Source: a virus. From it: a DNA stretch of 30,737 nucleotides. The notes under the pieces are model-generated. The model was not told the DNA's origin, did not search any database, and saw nothing but the letters and a program-made list of their open reading frames with translations. Shown here piece after piece: positions 2,955-30,737 of this stretch. The position numbers and the translations under genes were made by a program. The stretch lies in the IMG/VR virus record IMGVR_UViG_3300035703_000322, positions 1-30,737 of that record. One strand, 5' to 3'. Position 1 is the stretch's first letter. The number at the start of each line of letters is the position of its first letter.

Positions 2955-4118
2955 TTACCAAGCCAAAACCTCAAATTTGGGCTTGTTTAATTTCGTATAA
3001 ATAGCGTATCTCATAGCATCCAAAGCGTGGTCATTGAACTTCACCGGGACCTCGTCTGTGTGTATCTTGCCGTCCTTGTCCAATTTCCATTTGTAGCTTT
3101 TAATCTCCTTAATTAAGTTTACCGACTCCAAAGTAATATAAAGCGGCATTGACTTAACTTTCTGTATTCCGGCCCAAACATCCTTTTCGGCTGGCTTTGC
3201 ATTGTATCCGGCCCTCACCAACTCCTCAATGGTTTTCGGTTCGGCATTATCACAAAACAATTCCTCATGCCGTTCGATGCTCAACCCTTTCAGCCGTTCA
3301 ATCAGGTCGGTTGTGGTTAGTTTGGTTTCGTAAAGGCATTCGTCAACAAAGATTGCGTTTTCCTTAAACCCTACCTTAATTACCGAACTCGGCACATTGT
3401 AACCGAAATCCACCCCATAGACCACTTCACAATCGGACGGAAACTCTGCCGTTTTCCAGTGGGTGTAAATGATTTCCTGACTGGCACCCCTTTGACCCAA
3501 CCCGAACACCTTCCACAAATTAGGGTCGGCATCTTTTAGGCTTTCGATTTCCTCAACTTGTTCCTTTGGCAAAAACGGGTTGTCTTTGTAGGTCGAATGG
3601 ATCAGGATGTTGCCATCTTTGTCCGCTACCTCATAAACCCAACTTGCTTCGTCAACCGGGTTGAAGTCAAGGAAAATCGTTTTTTTGGTCCGTAGTGCCA
3701 ACTGGGTGTAAATCGTAAACGGCAACAAATTTGCCTCATTGATGTACAAAATATCCCGACCCGGACCCCTGACCTTTCCACTATCTTCAGCCCCAAAGAA
3801 CTCAATATAGGAGCCGTTGGGAAAGTTGTAGATGTTGTCAGTCTTATTGAATGCCTCGTCTGAATAAAGCCCAGCATTGTCCAAAATCTCCAAGATGTCC
3901 CTTCTTGCCCCTCGTTTTAAGTGAGGTAAAGATGGGGACACCACCGAAATTGTGACCTTCTCATTGTTCGCTATGTAAAGAGCTAAAAGTTGACTAATCG
4001 AATAGGTTTTCCCACTACGGGTTGACCCTTGGTTCGCCAACACCCGATATTTGCCCGAATCGTAGGCTTTACGATTCAGATTAAATACCTTGGTTTTCTT
4101 TATCGTTACTGTCCGCAT
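2955..4118 (-). CDS. terL: Terminase large subunit (ATPase and nuclease)
   Basis: A 387-residue packaging motor subunit of the Terminase_3 type. Walker A is GSTRSGKT (residues 31-38) and Walker B with the catalytic Glu is ILYINEAN (123-130). The C-terminal RNase H-like nuclease shows its acidic residues in YGVDFGY (D237), LFCDNAEP (D290) and FNDHALDAMRYA (D363 and D367). The protein pumps DNA into the prohead through the portal and cuts the concatemer. It overlaps the end of terS by 38 bases in another frame. All expected catalytic motifs are present and the length is ordinary, though at the short end. Confidence 0.96.
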   Translation of the reverse strand: MRTVTIKKTKVFNLNRKAYDSGKYRVLANQGSTRSGKTYSISQLLALYIANNEKVTISVVSPSLPHLKRGARRDILEILDNAGLYSDEAFNKTDNIYNFPNGSYIEFFGAEDSGKVRGPGRDILYINEANLLPFTIYTQLALRTKKTIFLDFNPVDEASWVYEVADKDGNILIHSTYKDNPFLPKEQVEEIESLKDADPNLWKVFGLGQRGASQEIIYTHWKTAEFPSDCEVVYGVDFGYNVPSSVIKVGFKENAIFVDECLYETKLTTTDLIERLKGLSIERHEELFCDNAEPKTIEELVRAGYNAKPAEKDVWAGIQKVKSMPLYITLESVNLIKEIKSYKWKLDKDGKIHTDEVPVKFNDHALDAMRYAIYTKLNKPKFEVLAW

Positions 4119-4446
4119 CTTGGAAGATCAATTTGACACCCCCCTCAACACGGACATCCTGTTCAACCTTATCCCTCCAACCCATATTTTTCAACGCAAA
4201 AATCACCCCGGTTGGATTGTTTTCGTAAATCAGTCGGCCTTCATACTTTGACTCAATCTTATTTACCCCCTCTTTTAATATGTCGAAAAATTCGTCCCGT
4301 TCCCGATAATTGTAGAGGGTTTGTCGGTCCATTCCAAGGAAAACGGCCAATCCAGCAATGGTTGGCTTTGGTTCAACCTCAAAGTATTCGTTGACCTTTG
4401 TTTGTAGTTCGTCTGCCGTGTATTTGATGGGTCTGCCAGCTGGCAT
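4081..4446 (-). CDS. terS: Terminase small subunit
   Basis: A 121-residue DNA-recognition subunit. It opens MPAGRPIKYTADELQTKVNE, followed by an HTH-like stretch (TIAGLAVFLGMDRQTLYNYR, about residues 29-48) and then IESKYEGRL and GVIFALKNMGWRDK, a pattern shared by P22 gp3-like and other phage small terminases. It should bind the packaging site, often within or near its own gene. It is the first gene after the 4447-4536 intergenic region, which carries a candidate promoter and a palindrome, so it probably heads the packaging and structural operon. The acidic C-terminus is expected to contact TerL. Confidence 0.9.
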   Translation of the reverse strand: MPAGRPIKYTADELQTKVNEYFEVEPKPTIAGLAVFLGMDRQTLYNYRERDEFFDILKEGVNKIESKYEGRLIYENNPTGVIFALKNMGWRDKVEQDVRVEGGVKLIFQDADSNDKENQGI

Positions 4447-4464
4447 TGTGTTTGTTTGTTAGGG

Positions 4465-4491
4465 AAAAAATAAACTAAAAAGTTTAGTTTA
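4465..4491 (-). promoter_or_regulatory. 9-bp perfect palindrome with U-run in the terS leader
   Basis: TAAACTAAA (4471-4479), a 3-base loop and TTTAGTTTA (4483-4491) form a perfect inverted repeat. Read leftward, it is followed by six T residues (4470-4465). It could be an AT-rich terminator or attenuator for transcripts from the glycan cassette, an operator, or both. The half-site AAACTAAAAA recurs in the palindrome at 8714-8737. Confidence 0.55.
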
Positions 4492-8800: not shown

Positions 8801-9091
8801 ATGAGCGAAACTATTACCATCCAATTGACCGCACAATTGTACGAATCACCAATGAAAGACCGTAATGAGGAAAAATACGGATATGGTGGTTGCATTTGTT
8901 GTAATAAGCCAATGAAAGAAACAGATTGTTTGTGGATTCACATGAATGAAAATTGGGTTGCTTTAAACCCTCAATTTGTTACCGAAGAAAATTGTTTTGA
9001 ATTGACTGGTGCCAATTCTCAGGGTTGGTTTCCAATTGGCAGTGATTGTGCCAAGAAAATGAAAGGCTTTGTATCTAACCCAAACAAATAA
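8801..9091 (+). CDS. Small Cys-rich early protein
   Basis: A 96-residue first early gene. A CICC knuckle (C31, C33, C34), C43, C65 and a C-terminal WFPIGSDCAKKMKGF with C83 suggest a small zinc-binding fold. The order of Cys-x-x-Cys, WIHM and PIGxxCAKK recalls small conserved proteins of Bacteroidota phages with no known role. An in-frame ATG at 8738 cannot be used by transcripts from the promoter at 8752-8759, so ATG 8801 is chosen. The 48-base element with the first pseudoknot begins at its stop codon. Confidence 0.8.
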   Translation: MSETITIQLTAQLYESPMKDRNEEKYGYGGCICCNKPMKETDCLWIHMNENWVALNPQFVTEENCFELTGANSQGWFPIGSDCAKKMKGFVSNPNK

Positions 9092-9121
9092 AACATCCGG
9101 GGGTGCGTCCGGTCAACGCAC
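9086..9121 (+). promoter_or_regulatory. Early-leader RNA pseudoknot, copy 1
   Basis: After a conserved AAATAAAACATCC segment, stem 1 pairs CCGG (9097-9100) with CCGG (9109-9112). Stem 2 pairs GTGCGT (9103-9108) from its loop with ACGCAC (9116-9121). Loops of 2, 0 and 3 bases fit an H-type pseudoknot. It lies 29 bases upstream of the ATG at 9151. Copy 2 at 9377-9412 keeps both stems. Confidence 0.65.
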
Positions 9122-9150
9122 ATATTCAAATCAAATCAAAACCCAAACAA

Positions 9151-9378
9151 ATGAATCAATCATCACACATCATCGCCTTCGGTGTTTATTATGTACCAAA
9201 TCGCGAAGGCAAAATTTTCGCTGGTCTAAAATCTGAATTACAAGGTGCATTTAATAACCAATCAGACGCAATTGATTTTTGTCAATCATTGCAAATTGGA
9301 GGGAATTATGACGAGTTGCATGTTGGTTATCGTGTTTACCCAATGCAGTACATTCCAAAAAATGTCATTGTTAGATAA
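9151..9378 (+). CDS. Small early protein, unknown function
   Basis: A 75-residue protein, MNQSSHIIAFGVYYVPNREG onward, with a mixed alpha/beta look (FGVYYVP and YRVYPMQYIP strands around a Ser/Asp-rich helix). No domain is recognised. ATG 9151 is preferred over ATG 9103, which lies inside pseudoknot copy 1 and would prepend a Lys/Pro-rich tail. The gene is bracketed by the two pseudoknot copies: one in its leader, one starting at its stop codon. Confidence 0.7.
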   Translation: MNQSSHIIAFGVYYVPNREGKIFAGLKSELQGAFNNQSDAIDFCQSLQIGGNYDELHVGYRVYPMQYIPKNVIVR

Positions 9379-9412
9379 ATAAAACATCCAGGGGTGCGTC
9401 TGGTAAACGCAC
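9377..9412 (+). promoter_or_regulatory. Early-leader RNA pseudoknot, copy 2
   Basis: The same architecture as copy 1: stem 1 CCAG (9388-9391) with CTGG (9400-9403), stem 2 GTGCGT (9394-9399) with ACGCAC (9407-9412). Compared with copy 1, a G-C pair in stem 1 has become A-T and the only other change is in the loop before stem 2's 3' strand. It lies 17 bases before the ATG at 9430. Confidence 0.65.
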
Positions 9413-9429
9413 TATTTTAAATCAACCAC

Positions 9430-16530: not shown

Positions 16531-16995
16531 TTAAGATGCCAATTCAAAGTGCATCCAGTCGTAATCTTTGGCCGGGCCGTATCCAACAAACCCGTGTTTG
16601 GCAAAGATGTCAAGCATTGGTTTGTATTCTGCCTTTGAGAATTGGGCAATGGGTTTTTTCGTTTTCAGTCCGTTTCGGGCTGGATCAAGATCAATCGCAA
16701 TGCCCCACGCATGACGGGACCAACGTGTTGTGGACCCCCTCATTTTCCTTACATTGACACATCCGCCAAATAGGTCAATCCCTAACCTTTGCAGTTCGGA
16801 AAGCCCGTAATGGGCCAATAAATCAGCAAAAACCCTCTTAAACGGCTCACCAGCCAACTTGTGGCACTGCATCCGCTTCACAACTGCCTTTGTGTCCCAC
16901 GCAATCCGCATTGGATAGGGTAAGTCAATGACAACGAAATTGTCAAGGTCACCCGGTTCGCCGTATTTGGCCCTGATTTGTTGGTCAGTTAGCAT
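16531..16995 (-). CDS. Endolysin, peptidase M15 (L-Ala-D-Glu / D-Ala-D-Ala type)
   Basis: A 154-residue zinc peptidase. MLTDQQIRAKYGEPGDLDNF opens the protein, YPMRIAWDTK follows, and the catalytic core has SRHAWGIAIDLD (H95, D102) and DWMHFE (H149), the M15 zinc ligands. It cuts peptide stems of peptidoglycan at lysis. ATG 16995 was chosen over 17046 because family members begin at this point and it leaves only an 11-base overlap with the spanin gene. There is no signal peptide, so release through a holin is expected. Confidence 0.92.
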   Translation of the reverse strand: MLTDQQIRAKYGEPGDLDNFVVIDLPYPMRIAWDTKAVVKRMQCHKLAGEPFKRVFADLLAHYGLSELQRLGIDLFGGCVNVRKMRGSTTRWSRHAWGIAIDLDPARNGLKTKKPIAQFSKAEYKPMLDIFAKHGFVGYGPAKDYDWMHFELAS

Positions 16996-17482
16996 ATCTG
17001 AATATGAATTTACGCAATGTCCATAATACCGACAAAATAACCACAATCCATAATATCACCAACCTTTCACGGGCCAGCCGTTTCATTCGGTCCAATTCCT
17101 TTCGTTCCTCCAACATCCCCAAACTCATTTCGGCAAAGTCATTGTTGCAAGCCTCCAATGCCAATTGAACCGCCTCAATCTTGGCCGTGTTTTCCTTTAC
17201 AATGGTTTTGGTCTTGACAATGGTTTTCGTGACTGGGACAGTTTTTGTGATGTAGATAGTATCAAGGGTACGGATTGTGTCGAATATGTATTCCCCCTCA
17301 TAGGCCGTGTCAATTCGGACAGAATCCCTATACACAATGGAATCCCGTGAAGGGAACCGATCGGCACAAATCTTGGCTAATCGGCCCCCTTGGGATAGTT
17401 TGGCCTCCGCCTTATGAAATTGCCTTTCAGATGCACAACCTATTGTGCAGAATGCTGACAATATTGCTATTTGTTTGATCAT
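16985..17482 (-). CDS. Probable unimolecular spanin (u-spanin)
   Basis: From ATG 17482 the product is 165 residues. MIKQIAILSAFCTIGC looks like a lipoprotein signal with Cys at its end (lipobox TIGC, so not ideal at -3). The middle is an extended, Thr/Val/Lys-rich periplasmic part with repeats (KTVPVTKTIVKTKTIVKE) and a coiled-coil-like EMSLGMLEERKELDRMKRL stretch. Near the C-terminus lies a membrane span, RLVILWIVVILSVLWTL. An outer-membrane lipid anchor plus C-terminal inner-membrane span in one protein is the u-spanin layout (as in T1 gp11), which fuses the membranes in the last lysis step. An alternative ATG at 17491 is buried in the hairpin 17484-17506. Confidence 0.75.
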   Translation of the reverse strand: MIKQIAILSAFCTIGCASERQFHKAEAKLSQGGRLAKICADRFPSRDSIVYRDSVRIDTAYEGEYIFDTIRTLDTIYITKTVPVTKTIVKTKTIVKENTAKIEAVQLALEACNNDFAEMSLGMLEERKELDRMKRLARERLVILWIVVILSVLWTLRKFIFRYAN

Positions 17483-17483
17483 G

Positions 17484-17506
17484 TGTCGCATTTAAGATTT
17501 GCGACA
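17484..17506 (-). promoter_or_regulatory. Hairpin at the spanin start codon
   Basis: TGTCGCA (17484-17490) and TGCGACA (17500-17506) are perfect reverse complements around a 9-base loop. In the leftward mRNA the stem ends one base before ATG 17482 and contains ATG 17491. Its outer four bases (17503-17506) are shared with the long inverted repeat next door, so the two cannot both form fully. Confidence 0.5.
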
Positions 17507-17621
17507 TTGTAAAATGTTGAGGAAAGGTTAGTAAATCTTGCAATAGTCCAAATATTGTTGGTCAAGTTTCACTAACCCAATGACGTGTCCAATCCGCCAT
17601 TGCCTCAACATTTGCAATGTC
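17503..17621. ncRNA. 119-base nested inverted-repeat element (three-way-junction structure)
   Basis: The arms 17503-17522 and 17603-17621 pair over 19 positions (7 bp, one wobble plus bulge, 11 bp). Inside, GGTTAGT-AAA-CTTG (17526-17540) pairs with CAAG-TTT-ACTAACC (17563-17577) with one single-base bulge on each side. CAATG (17578-17582) pairs with CATTG (17598-17602). The helices follow one another with junctions of 3, 0 and 0 bases. It lies between the holin-like and spanin genes. A TAAATTTG box reads leftward into it at 17649-17642. The coding strand of the RNA, if any, is undecided. No known RNA class is recognised. Confidence 0.6.
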
Positions 17622-17646
17622 TTGAAAAATCCAGATTTGGACAAAT

Positions 17647-17808
17647 TTATTTTCCTGATACATCCCCATCCTTGGCAACAATAAGGCCAAGGGCGGTCAA
17701 TGCTGCGGTCACTTGGGCGGCTTGCTCGCCACTCAAATAGCCCATGTAGGTAGCCAATGCAATGGCCCCAACTAATACTCCGGCAACGGTTGTTTTCCAA
17801 CTTTTCAT
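17647..17808 (-). CDS. Holin-like small hydrophobic protein
   Basis: A 53-residue protein, MKSWKTTVAGVLVGAIALAT onward. It has two hydrophobic stretches (VAGVLVGAIALATYMGYL and VTAALTALGLIVA) linked by a short polar turn, and a C-terminal AKDGDVSGK. This pattern is common for short holin-like proteins beside lysis genes in Bacteroidota phages. It would form inner-membrane lesions that release or activate the M15 endolysin. ATG 17808 is preferred over 17853 because it follows the upstream stop by one base. The structured element 17503-17621 follows. Confidence 0.68.
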   Translation of the reverse strand: MKSWKTTVAGVLVGAIALATYMGYLSGEQAAQVTAALTALGLIVAKDGDVSGK

Positions 17809-17809
17809 A

Positions 17810-18031
17810 TTAATCACGGTTTTGTTTGTTTTGTAATTCCAATTGGATTTCACTGATTTTGTTGAAGATGGAATCCAATTTTTGACTCACATCTTGGTCT
17901 TTTTTTTCAATGTGTTCCAATCGGATGTCCAATTCTTTTAATTTGATGGTCATTTGGGTGTTTAATTTAACCCATCCGTAAACGATGGTTACCGCTTGAC
18001 CTACCAAAAAAATCAGCAATTCCTGACTCAT
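17810..18031 (-). CDS. Membrane-anchored coiled-coil protein of the lysis region (holin-like)
   Basis: A 73-residue protein. It has an N-terminal membrane span (LLIFLVGQAVTIVYGWV, residues 5-21), then a long amphipathic coiled coil (LKELDIRLEHIEKKDQDVSQ, LDSIFNKISEIQLELQN). The layout mirrors XhlA-type lysis accessory proteins, although XhlA has its span at the C-terminus. It starts in an ATGA overlap with the exported protein upstream and ends one base before the holin-like gene, so the genes are probably translated together. Confidence 0.65.
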   Translation of the reverse strand: MSQELLIFLVGQAVTIVYGWVKLNTQMTIKLKELDIRLEHIEKKDQDVSQKLDSIFNKISEIQLELQNKQNRD

Positions 18032-18231
18032 TTCGCTTCCAATTGTTTTTTTGCTTCCTGATAAAGTTTAGCCCGTAGCCCTTCCGACTTTTTGGCCGGA
18101 AGTTCCCCCAGACCCTCAAATATCAAATTGACCTCCTCAACGGATAGTTCCAACTTGACGGTTTTTGGTTCGTCTTGGGTTTTGAATGACATAAGGGACA
18201 AAATGCTGAATGCTAAAATGGTGCGTTTCAT
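18028..18231 (-). CDS. Small exported protein
   Basis: A 67-residue product with a signal-like N-terminus (MKRTILAFSILSLMSFKTQ) and a charged helical body LSVEEVNLIFEGLGELPAKK ending in KLYQEAKKQLEAK. The body resembles small phage proteins that appear elsewhere without a signal peptide. If the signal works, the mature part is periplasmic. It lies at the head of the lysis cluster; a role there is only inferred from position. Confidence 0.62.
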   Translation of the reverse strand: MKRTILAFSILSLMSFKTQDEPKTVKLELSVEEVNLIFEGLGELPAKKSEGLRAKLYQEAKKQLEAK

Positions 18232-18242
18232 TGTGTTTTATT

Positions 18243-18593
18243 TTAGTTTATGAAGGTAAATCCATACTTTCTACCGACCAAAACAAAGGGCCACAAATTG
18301 CAAGGTGTTCCATTGTCGCACCACTCGTCATATTCCTCACCTTGGATTGTGTAATTTCCTTGGGTTGATGTTTGCCCGTTGGACATCAACAAAACCCAAT
18401 AAAGGGTGGCGGTTGACTTCAGATCGTCCGAAATGACCCGAATACCAAGATGCGTGGACATCAATGTGTCGGTGTAGTTTGCTTTGATTGGGGTGATTTT
18501 GCAAGCCACAATTGAGGTGACCGTTGTGTCAACCACTTGGGCATTTGCACCATAGCCAAAGGCAAGAAAAAGAATGAAGATTGCTTTTTTCAT
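18243..18593 (-). CDS. Exported hypothetical protein
   Basis: A 116-residue protein with a clear Sec signal peptide (MKKAIFILFLAFGYGANA, cleavage before QVVD, Gln at +1 as often in Bacteroidota). The mature part is beta-rich, with ATLYWVLLMSNGQ and GEEYDEWCDNGTPCNLWPF, and has Cys residues that could form disulfides in the periplasm. No family is recognised. It lies just after the fibre gene and before the lysis genes, so it may be a fibre partner, an envelope-acting factor or a superinfection factor. Confidence 0.65.
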   Translation of the reverse strand: MKKAIFILFLAFGYGANAQVVDTTVTSIVACKITPIKANYTDTLMSTHLGIRVISDDLKSTATLYWVLLMSNGQTSTQGNYTIQGEEYDEWCDNGTPCNLWPFVLVGRKYGFTFIN

Positions 18594-26560: not shown

Positions 26561-26905
26561 TCAGGGATTCACTTGGGGTTGCCCTTCCCCCGGTTCAACG
26601 GGTTTTTGGGCATCTACAAACTTTGTAATCAACTCAGCCGCATCCGCATCAGTCATTTCACCAACCCAATCTTGACATTGAACCAATGTAACCAAATTGG
26701 TGTCCTTTGTGACCTTTTTGTGGCAGTTGATTCCGGCATAAACAATCCCACAAATGAAATCGAATTGTTTGTCCGGCTTAGTCAGTAGTTCTGACATTTG
26801 GAGTGGATCGGAGGATGTGGCTTCGCCAAAGAACTTGGAAAACCACAACCTACCGAAATCCAGTGTATATTCTACTCCCCCAATTGTGTGTTGTGTTTGC
26901 TTCAT
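26561..26905 (-). CDS. Tail assembly chaperone, G-frame
   Basis: A 114-residue protein between tail tube and tape measure genes, the position of lambda gpG. It has a short beta start (TIGGVEYTLDFGRLWFSKF), a helical middle (FDFICGIVYAGINCHKKVTK), and DADAAELITKFVDAQKPV before a Pro/Gly-rich tail. The stop at 26561-26563 lies 22 bases after the candidate slippery run GGGGGAA (26591-26585). The unshifted product would be in excess over the G-T fusion, as in other siphoviruses. Confidence 0.75.
   Translation of the reverse strand: MKQTQHTIGGVEYTLDFGRLWFSKFFGEATSSDPLQMSELLTKPDKQFDFICGIVYAGINCHKKVTKDTNLVTLVQCQDWVGEMTDADAAELITKFVDAQKPVEPGEGQPQVNP
26585..26591 (-). other. Candidate -1 ribosomal frameshift site
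   Basis: The minus-strand heptamer GGGGGAA lies in the G frame as CCG GGG GAA. The T frame opens after a TGA at 26597-26595 and the G frame stops at 26563-26561, so the shift must occur between about 26594 and 26564. The P-site codon can re-pair perfectly (GGG to GGG), the A-site only partly (GAA to GGA). No better slippery run exists in that interval. Confidence 0.55.
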
Positions 26906-30399: not shown

Positions 30400-30737
30400 T
30401 TAGGAATTGATTGTTTTAAGTAAATTGTTTATTGCAACATCCAAACCCTTCAAATCGACTTCCGGCTGAACTGTTTGCACGGGTTCAGTGGTTTCCGCCT
30501 CAATGGTCAGGATGGATTTCAGTGCCTCGTTTATTTGGGCCAAACGGATTTCCATAAACTCAAACGCATCGTCTGAGTAACGGCCGTCTTTTAATGATTT
30601 AAGCAAAAGGCCCATTTCCTTGCTCAACTTTTCGTGTTCAACGGCAATGTCATCCTTTGTGAAGGATTTGCCAGCCGTCAGGGTTGGTGTCAAAGGATTG
30701 GCACCCCAAAGGACCGCCGAACCTTCAAACAACAACA
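30400..30737 (-). CDS. Prohead maturation protease, C-terminal part
   Basis: This is the other end of the gene described at 1-545. The reading frame passes from base 1 to base 30610 when the circle is closed; bases 30611-30737 repeat 1-127. The visible part has LLFEGSAVLWGANPLTPTLT, typical of the family just after the catalytic Ser segment. Then come KDDIAVEHEKLSKEMGLLLK and a Glu/Thr/Pro-rich linker before a final helix DVAINNLLKTI. The stop at 30400-30402 is five bases before the capsid start. Confidence 0.93.
   Translation of the reverse strand, partial: LLFEGSAVLWGANPLTPTLTAGKSFTKDDIAVEHEKLSKEMGLLLKSLKDGRYSDDAFEFMEIRLAQINEALKSILTIEAETTEPVQTVQPEVDLKGLDVAINNLLKTINS
30611..30737. repeat. 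Terminal 127-base overlap (right copy)
   Basis: This segment is identical to bases 1-127 and marks the closing point of the 30,610-bp circle. It lies inside the prohead protease gene, so nothing suggests a natural genome end here. Confidence 0.95.

Follow-up and report, generated by a model that had tools for sequence, protein, structure and literature searches.

A structured non-coding insertion of putative function between the candidate holin and spanin genes of a metagenomic phage

Organization of the lysis region

We analyzed a stretch of viral DNA of 30,737 nucleotides (IMG/VR record IMGVR_UViG_3300035703_000322, positions 1 to 30,737), referred to here as the window. Its lysis cassette lies on the minus strand and contains, in order, a candidate holin gene, the structured element described below, a candidate unimolecular spanin gene, and the gene for an M15-type endolysin (Table 1). 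The u-spanin definition was taken from PMC6139136. Protein searches of Pfam and PHROG returned no match for the holin or the spanin, and these two genes are therefore named from their position and sequence features. The phage also encodes TerL, head morphogenesis proteins, a DNA methyltransferase, and a NinG/Rap-like junction endonuclease (phrog_171). From sequence style and the relatives, we infer that the host belongs to the Bacteroidota. Positions 1 to 127 and 30611 to 30737 of the window form an exact 127-nt terminal repeat, which probably reflects k-mer overlap in the assembly of a circular, complete genome and not a biological terminal repeat.

Table 1. Coordinates of the lysis genes, the insert, and its predicted structural parts
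Feature	Position	Strand	Description and evidence
Endolysin, M15-type peptidase	16531..17046	-	PF13539, 2.2e-11; phrog_17001 endolysin
Candidate unimolecular spanin	16985..17482	-	Lipobox-like AFCTIGC N-terminus, C-terminal hydrophobic segment; start as in relatives
Upstream in-frame ATG brought by the insert	17489..17491	-	Adds Met-Arg-His to the spanin; sequence and ORF 16985-17491
Competing 7-bp hairpin covering the upstream in-frame ATG	17484..17506	-	Inverted repeat; pair probability
Whole insert, 158-160 bp	17486..17645	.	Absent from four related phages; alignments L001/G001, L002/G002, and L005/G003, and the L234 junction
Predicted three-way-junction core	17503..17621	-	119 nt; z -7.5 (minus) and -7.4 (plus)
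Outer stem, 3' arm	17503..17522	-	Inverted repeats and pair probabilities
Long inner hairpin	17526..17577	-	10 + 4 + 4 bp with internal loops; inverted repeat and folds
Hairpin 2	17578..17602	-	8 bp, 9-nt loop GATTGGACA; folds
Outer stem, 5' arm (minus-strand sense)	17603..17621	-	Inverted repeats and pair probabilities
TAAATTTG box	17642..17649	-	Indistinguishable from background
Candidate holin	17647..17805	-	52 aa from ATG; named by size and hydrophobicity; divergent mosaic allele

The element is absent from the same site in related phages

We compared the holin-spanin junction of the window with that of four related phages. The two closest relatives, G001 and G002, are about 88 to 90% identical to the window across long syntenic blocks, and their junction reads GGAAAATAAAACCACATGATC, without the element. 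It is also missing from two more distant relatives, whose junctions read TAAAACGAACACCATG (L005/G003) and TAAAACAAACACCATG (L234). The window reads GGAAAATAAA, followed by the insert and then by CACATGATC. In the four relatives, the spanin starts at the ATG equivalent to position 17482, about 10 to 14 bases after the holin stop codon. The extra sequence of the window, 17486 to 17645, is just the structured piece, about 160 bp long and consisting almost throughout of nested inverted repeats.

Because the element is missing from the two close relatives and from the outgroups alike, its gain in the lineage of the window is the simpler history. In the blocks aligned with the two closest relatives, it is the only non-coding insertion of at least 12 nt, and the remaining large indels all fall in gene-content changes. 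The GC content of the insert is 37%, compared with 44% for the genome, which is compatible with a foreign origin. The insert is known from a metagenomic assembly of one genome, and an assembly error is possible. An earlier note on this DNA, made from the letters alone, had proposed a switch-like RNA that controls spanin timing. The comparison does not support a conserved RNA of this kind: in close relatives, holin and spanin stand in the same order without the element, which indicates that phages with this arrangement can dispense with it.

The insert lies beside a divergent holin allele

On the spanin side of the junction, both G001 and G002 match the window at 99% identity. On the holin side (17646 to 17846), identity to the window is 76 to 82%, although the two phages are themselves 91 to 96% identical to each other. 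The divergence of this side, set against the likeness of the relatives to each other, suggests that the holin allele was exchanged. The insert, located between the holin stop and the spanin start codons, would then sit at that joint, on the edge of the replaced allele. Our search for the donor of the allele found no phage with the element. Further mosaic patches occur nearby, with 71% identity to G002 at 17100 to 17200 and 68 to 75% identity to G001 at 18146 to 18346. Given the frequency of such patches in the region, the position of the insert beside one of them is suggestive and could be a coincidence.

An orphan sequence at a mosaic breakpoint could also be neutral filler, that is, a functionless leftover of illegitimate recombination at the holin boundary. 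We consider this very improbable, since random sequence would not fold 7 standard deviations above shuffles with three clean helices, as described below.

The insert is predicted to fold into a three-way junction

The outer stem, the two hairpins that it encloses, and the start-codon hairpin had all been outlined in the earlier note, and we recovered each of them as inverted repeats at the same positions. The outer stem repeats match at 91% (17503 to 17513 with 17611 to 17621) and 93% (17512 to 17525 with 17600 to 17613), and the arms of the inner hairpin match at 87% (17526 to 17540 with 17563 to 17577). The arms of the start-codon hairpin (17484 to 17490 with 17500 to 17506) form 7 perfect base pairs.

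Both strands were folded and compared with dinucleotide-shuffled controls. The minus-strand fold of 17480 to 17650 reached -54.2 kcal/mol, compared with -30.3 ± 3.2 kcal/mol for the shuffles (z = -7.5; 0 of 200), and the plus-strand fold reached -50.2 kcal/mol (z = -4.5). For the 119-nt core alone, the z-scores were -7.5 on the minus strand and -7.4 on the plus strand (400 shuffles). By these predictions, the structure of the core is real and far beyond chance. In a sliding scan of the genome, the register of which was offset relative to the element, the best other sampled segment gained -18.5 kcal/mol over its shuffles, compared with -23.9 kcal/mol for the element. The most structured other segment on both strands, 26726 to 26885, lies inside a coding gene.

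Pair probabilities were considered for the minus strand in a context of 361 nt. For the two hairpins and the upper part of the outer stem, they were about 0.75 to 1.0, most of them at least 0.95. The lower outer stem (GACATTG/CAATGTC) had a value of about 0.65 and the start-codon hairpin one of about 0.37, indicating that the mutual exclusion of these two helices, a claim of the earlier note, is real in silico. The start-codon hairpin had been placed by the spanin start. It is present, but it overlaps a second in-frame ATG, at 17491 within the insert, which straddles its loop and stem.

Folds selected as RNA often show strand-specific wobble pairs. Here, 46 predicted pairs are common to both strands, and G-U pairs number 3 on the minus strand and 4 on the plus strand. 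With the two strands folding equally well and wobble pairs scarce, nothing points to RNA over DNA. The shared pairs and the z-scores of about -7.5 on both strands would suit a DNA-level site (cruciform, recombination, or protein binding), for which strand symmetry matters and not RNA; so would a box, GTCCAAATNTKG, repeated in both orientations inside the element, and the junction endonuclease encoded by the phage. However, when up to 2 mismatches are allowed, the genome holds 21 copies of the GTCCAAATNTKG box, compared with 14 expected, and no integrase was found among the proteins scanned. On sequence inspection, the orientation is also unlike that of integron attC core sites; an attC identity was rejected because the GTT/AAC core orientation is reversed. 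We regard a DNA-level site, an alternative also offered in the earlier note, as improbable.

Searches for further copies and known classes

BLAST found no second copy of the element in phage and plasmid records. Patterns of the outer stem, the arm, the inner hairpin, the hairpin 2 loop, and the leader had chance matches in viral contigs, with the limit that such pattern scans require exact matches and that diverged copies may escape them. A scan for the arm in bacterial and archaeal genomes gave 83 matches, none with the element around it; the best-looking matches inspected sit in ORFs, and several correspond to DIANVE-like motifs of proteins. No copy was present in 483 Bacteroidota genomes by BLAST or in 87 Bacteroidota genomes by covariance model. 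A covariance-model search of related phages had been advised in the earlier note. It was run with a single-sequence model over the relatives and genomes and returned no homologue, only the window itself or chance matches. One weak covariance match (L136/L137, E 0.004) was rejected, as it involved only an unrelated outer stem in loci chosen beforehand for the inner hairpin.

These searches bear on the reading of the element as a MITE-like non-autonomous transposable element, an AT-rich intergenic sequence that has imperfect inverted repeats some 40 nt long and is mobilized by a transposase in trans. Its size below 500 bp, inverted repeats, AT-richness, intergenic position, absence from relatives, and strong fold on both strands all fit this description. 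However, no other copy was seen in the window, the relatives, the viral contigs, the phage and plasmid records, or the 483 Bacteroidota genomes. There is also no clear target duplication: the single weak pair, TAAA/TAAA at 17646 to 17649 and 17491 to 17494, is off the boundary. Moreover, in a longer context the arms pair poorly to the insert ends, the terminal helix having a probability of 0.01. A MITE-like origin is therefore somewhat unlikely.

Rfam gave only chance matches in the window, both at the gathering threshold and at E up to 5, in agreement with the view that the element belongs to no known RNA class, and ARAGORN found no tRNA or tmRNA at the element. The TAAATTTG box had been suggested as a promoter. 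This suggestion was not upheld, as TAnnTTTG boxes occur at background frequency (27 observed versus 30 expected); no TTTG was seen at the expected -33 distance. Seven bases of the hairpin 2 loop are complementary to the leader at 17637 to 17643, which is weak evidence. Complementarities of 7 and 8 bp between the leader and the two hairpins, noticed post hoc, were both reached in 0.6% of shuffled leaders. Together with the clean helices and near-zero junctions, they would fit a free or cis-acting regulatory RNA (an ncRNA moron) selected for its three-way junction, the leader of which pairs with the hairpin loops. This reading is unlikely, given that no homologue was found, and hence no covariation, that Rfam and the promoter analysis lent it no support, and that the two strands fold equally with few G-U pairs. 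A CsrA sponge, suggested by four GGA motifs, was rejected as thin and because Bacteroidota, the presumed host group, are not known to have CsrA.

Several other intergenic stretches were observed along the way. The L136 locus at 3020 to 3129, with the same element in L137, holds an intergenic inverted repeat with 27-nt arms that are 96% complementary; located 5 bases past a stop codon in an unrelated phage, it is analogous to our element and not homologous. A related phage, L027, has a strongly folding intergenic stretch close to its lysis genes (4279 to 4478), with a z-score of about -7.4 from few shuffles and no Rfam match. In L239 and L241, the short intergenic sequence just past a holin-like gene (from about 1654) looks like the T-arm of a tRNA (GGGTGCAAGTCCTGCCC in L239), but ARAGORN called no tRNA and Rfam gave no match. 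Finally, the window itself carries two 49-nt copies (9086 to 9134 and 9377 to 9425; 86% identical) of an intergenic cassette, AAATAAAACATCC(G/A)GGGGTGCGTCYGGTMAACGCAC. Each has a 6-bp hairpin and lies at a stop codon or immediately before one, with a small gene following; the gene block that holds them is absent from the relatives. No match to these cassettes was found in phage records or in the loci compared.

A possible cis effect on lysis gene expression

Judged from the alignments, the structured insertion is real and unusually clean, and its function is putative. The reading that we favor, and hold tentatively, is that of a horizontally acquired, non-coding inverted-repeat cassette of about 160 bp that acts in cis on the lysis mRNA. 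Since fold strength does not favor the RNA strand, such an effect, and any consequence for translation, is something that we infer; a cis effect on the lysis mRNA nevertheless seems the most likely. The spacing of about 10 to 14 nt in the relatives would allow re-initiation or translational coupling between holin and spanin. In the window, a stable three-way junction would separate the two genes and break any such coupling. The end of the insert would supply a new in-frame spanin start, ATG 17491. Access to it may be tuned by the lower outer stem and its competitor, the start-codon hairpin, which share bases and are nearly balanced. Spanin initiation could in this way respond to upstream events, such as a ribosome leaving the holin gene.

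A broader proposal is an undescribed class of stand-alone structured non-coding cassettes that move between phages into gene junctions of lysis operons and reset downstream expression through competition between the start-codon hairpin and the closing stem. We see this as a long shot. The searches above found the cassette only once, and its own mobility is conjectural.

Phage genomes are tightly packed and gene gain is well documented, but a gene-free structural gain with a known empty site is seldom so clean. The empty site offers a natural experiment on how a phage gains structured non-coding DNA; as a new RNA, the insert is so far no more than a candidate. If the insert is functional, it would tie module swapping to the retuning of lysis genes; if it is not, it would still be a clean case of long inverted repeats entering phage genomes.

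Comparison with known systems

The packaging RNA of phi29 is a three-way junction of about 120 nt with an outer stem and two hairpins. Our element resembles it in shape only: the window has no Rfam match, the element is absent from relatives, and the terminase type and the location differ. Bacteriophage morons and lambdoid boundary sequences are extra DNA between genes. The element is likewise extra DNA between two genes that abut in relatives, but it has no protein-coding gene inside.

The promoter-early stem-loops (PeSLs) of T4-type phages were reportedly described by Arbiol in 2010 and Comeau in 2014. Like them, the element is a short non-coding stem-loop cassette in phage intergenic space, beside exchanged genes. 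Unlike them, it occurs in single copy, has a much larger three-way-junction fold, and does not come from a T4-type phage; its TAAATTTG box, the putative counterpart of their early promoter, is of a kind found at background frequency. PMC4503421 and PMC3950731, which cite this work, report that these intergenic cassettes mediate gene shuffling, and the former describes them as numerous in a genome and concentrated in its shuffled parts.

MITEs are characterized by features that include a size below 500 bp, inverted repeats, AT-richness, and an intergenic location, and their target-site repeats fade with age (reviewed in PMC10969869). The element shares with them its small size (160 bp), AT-richness (GC 37%), inverted repeats, intergenic position, stable transcript fold, and presence/absence polymorphism. 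It differs in its internal three-way junction and in lacking a second copy, a clear target duplication, or a parent IS. As for terminal repeats of the MITE type, its strong inverted repeats start 17 to 24 nt inside the boundaries, with a weak TGTC/GACA at the ends. Because the element fails the multi-copy feature of both PeSLs and MITEs, we file it as a member of neither. As DNA, it would by analogy resemble in behavior the intergenic cassettes with stem-loops by which recombination joints are marked in other phages.
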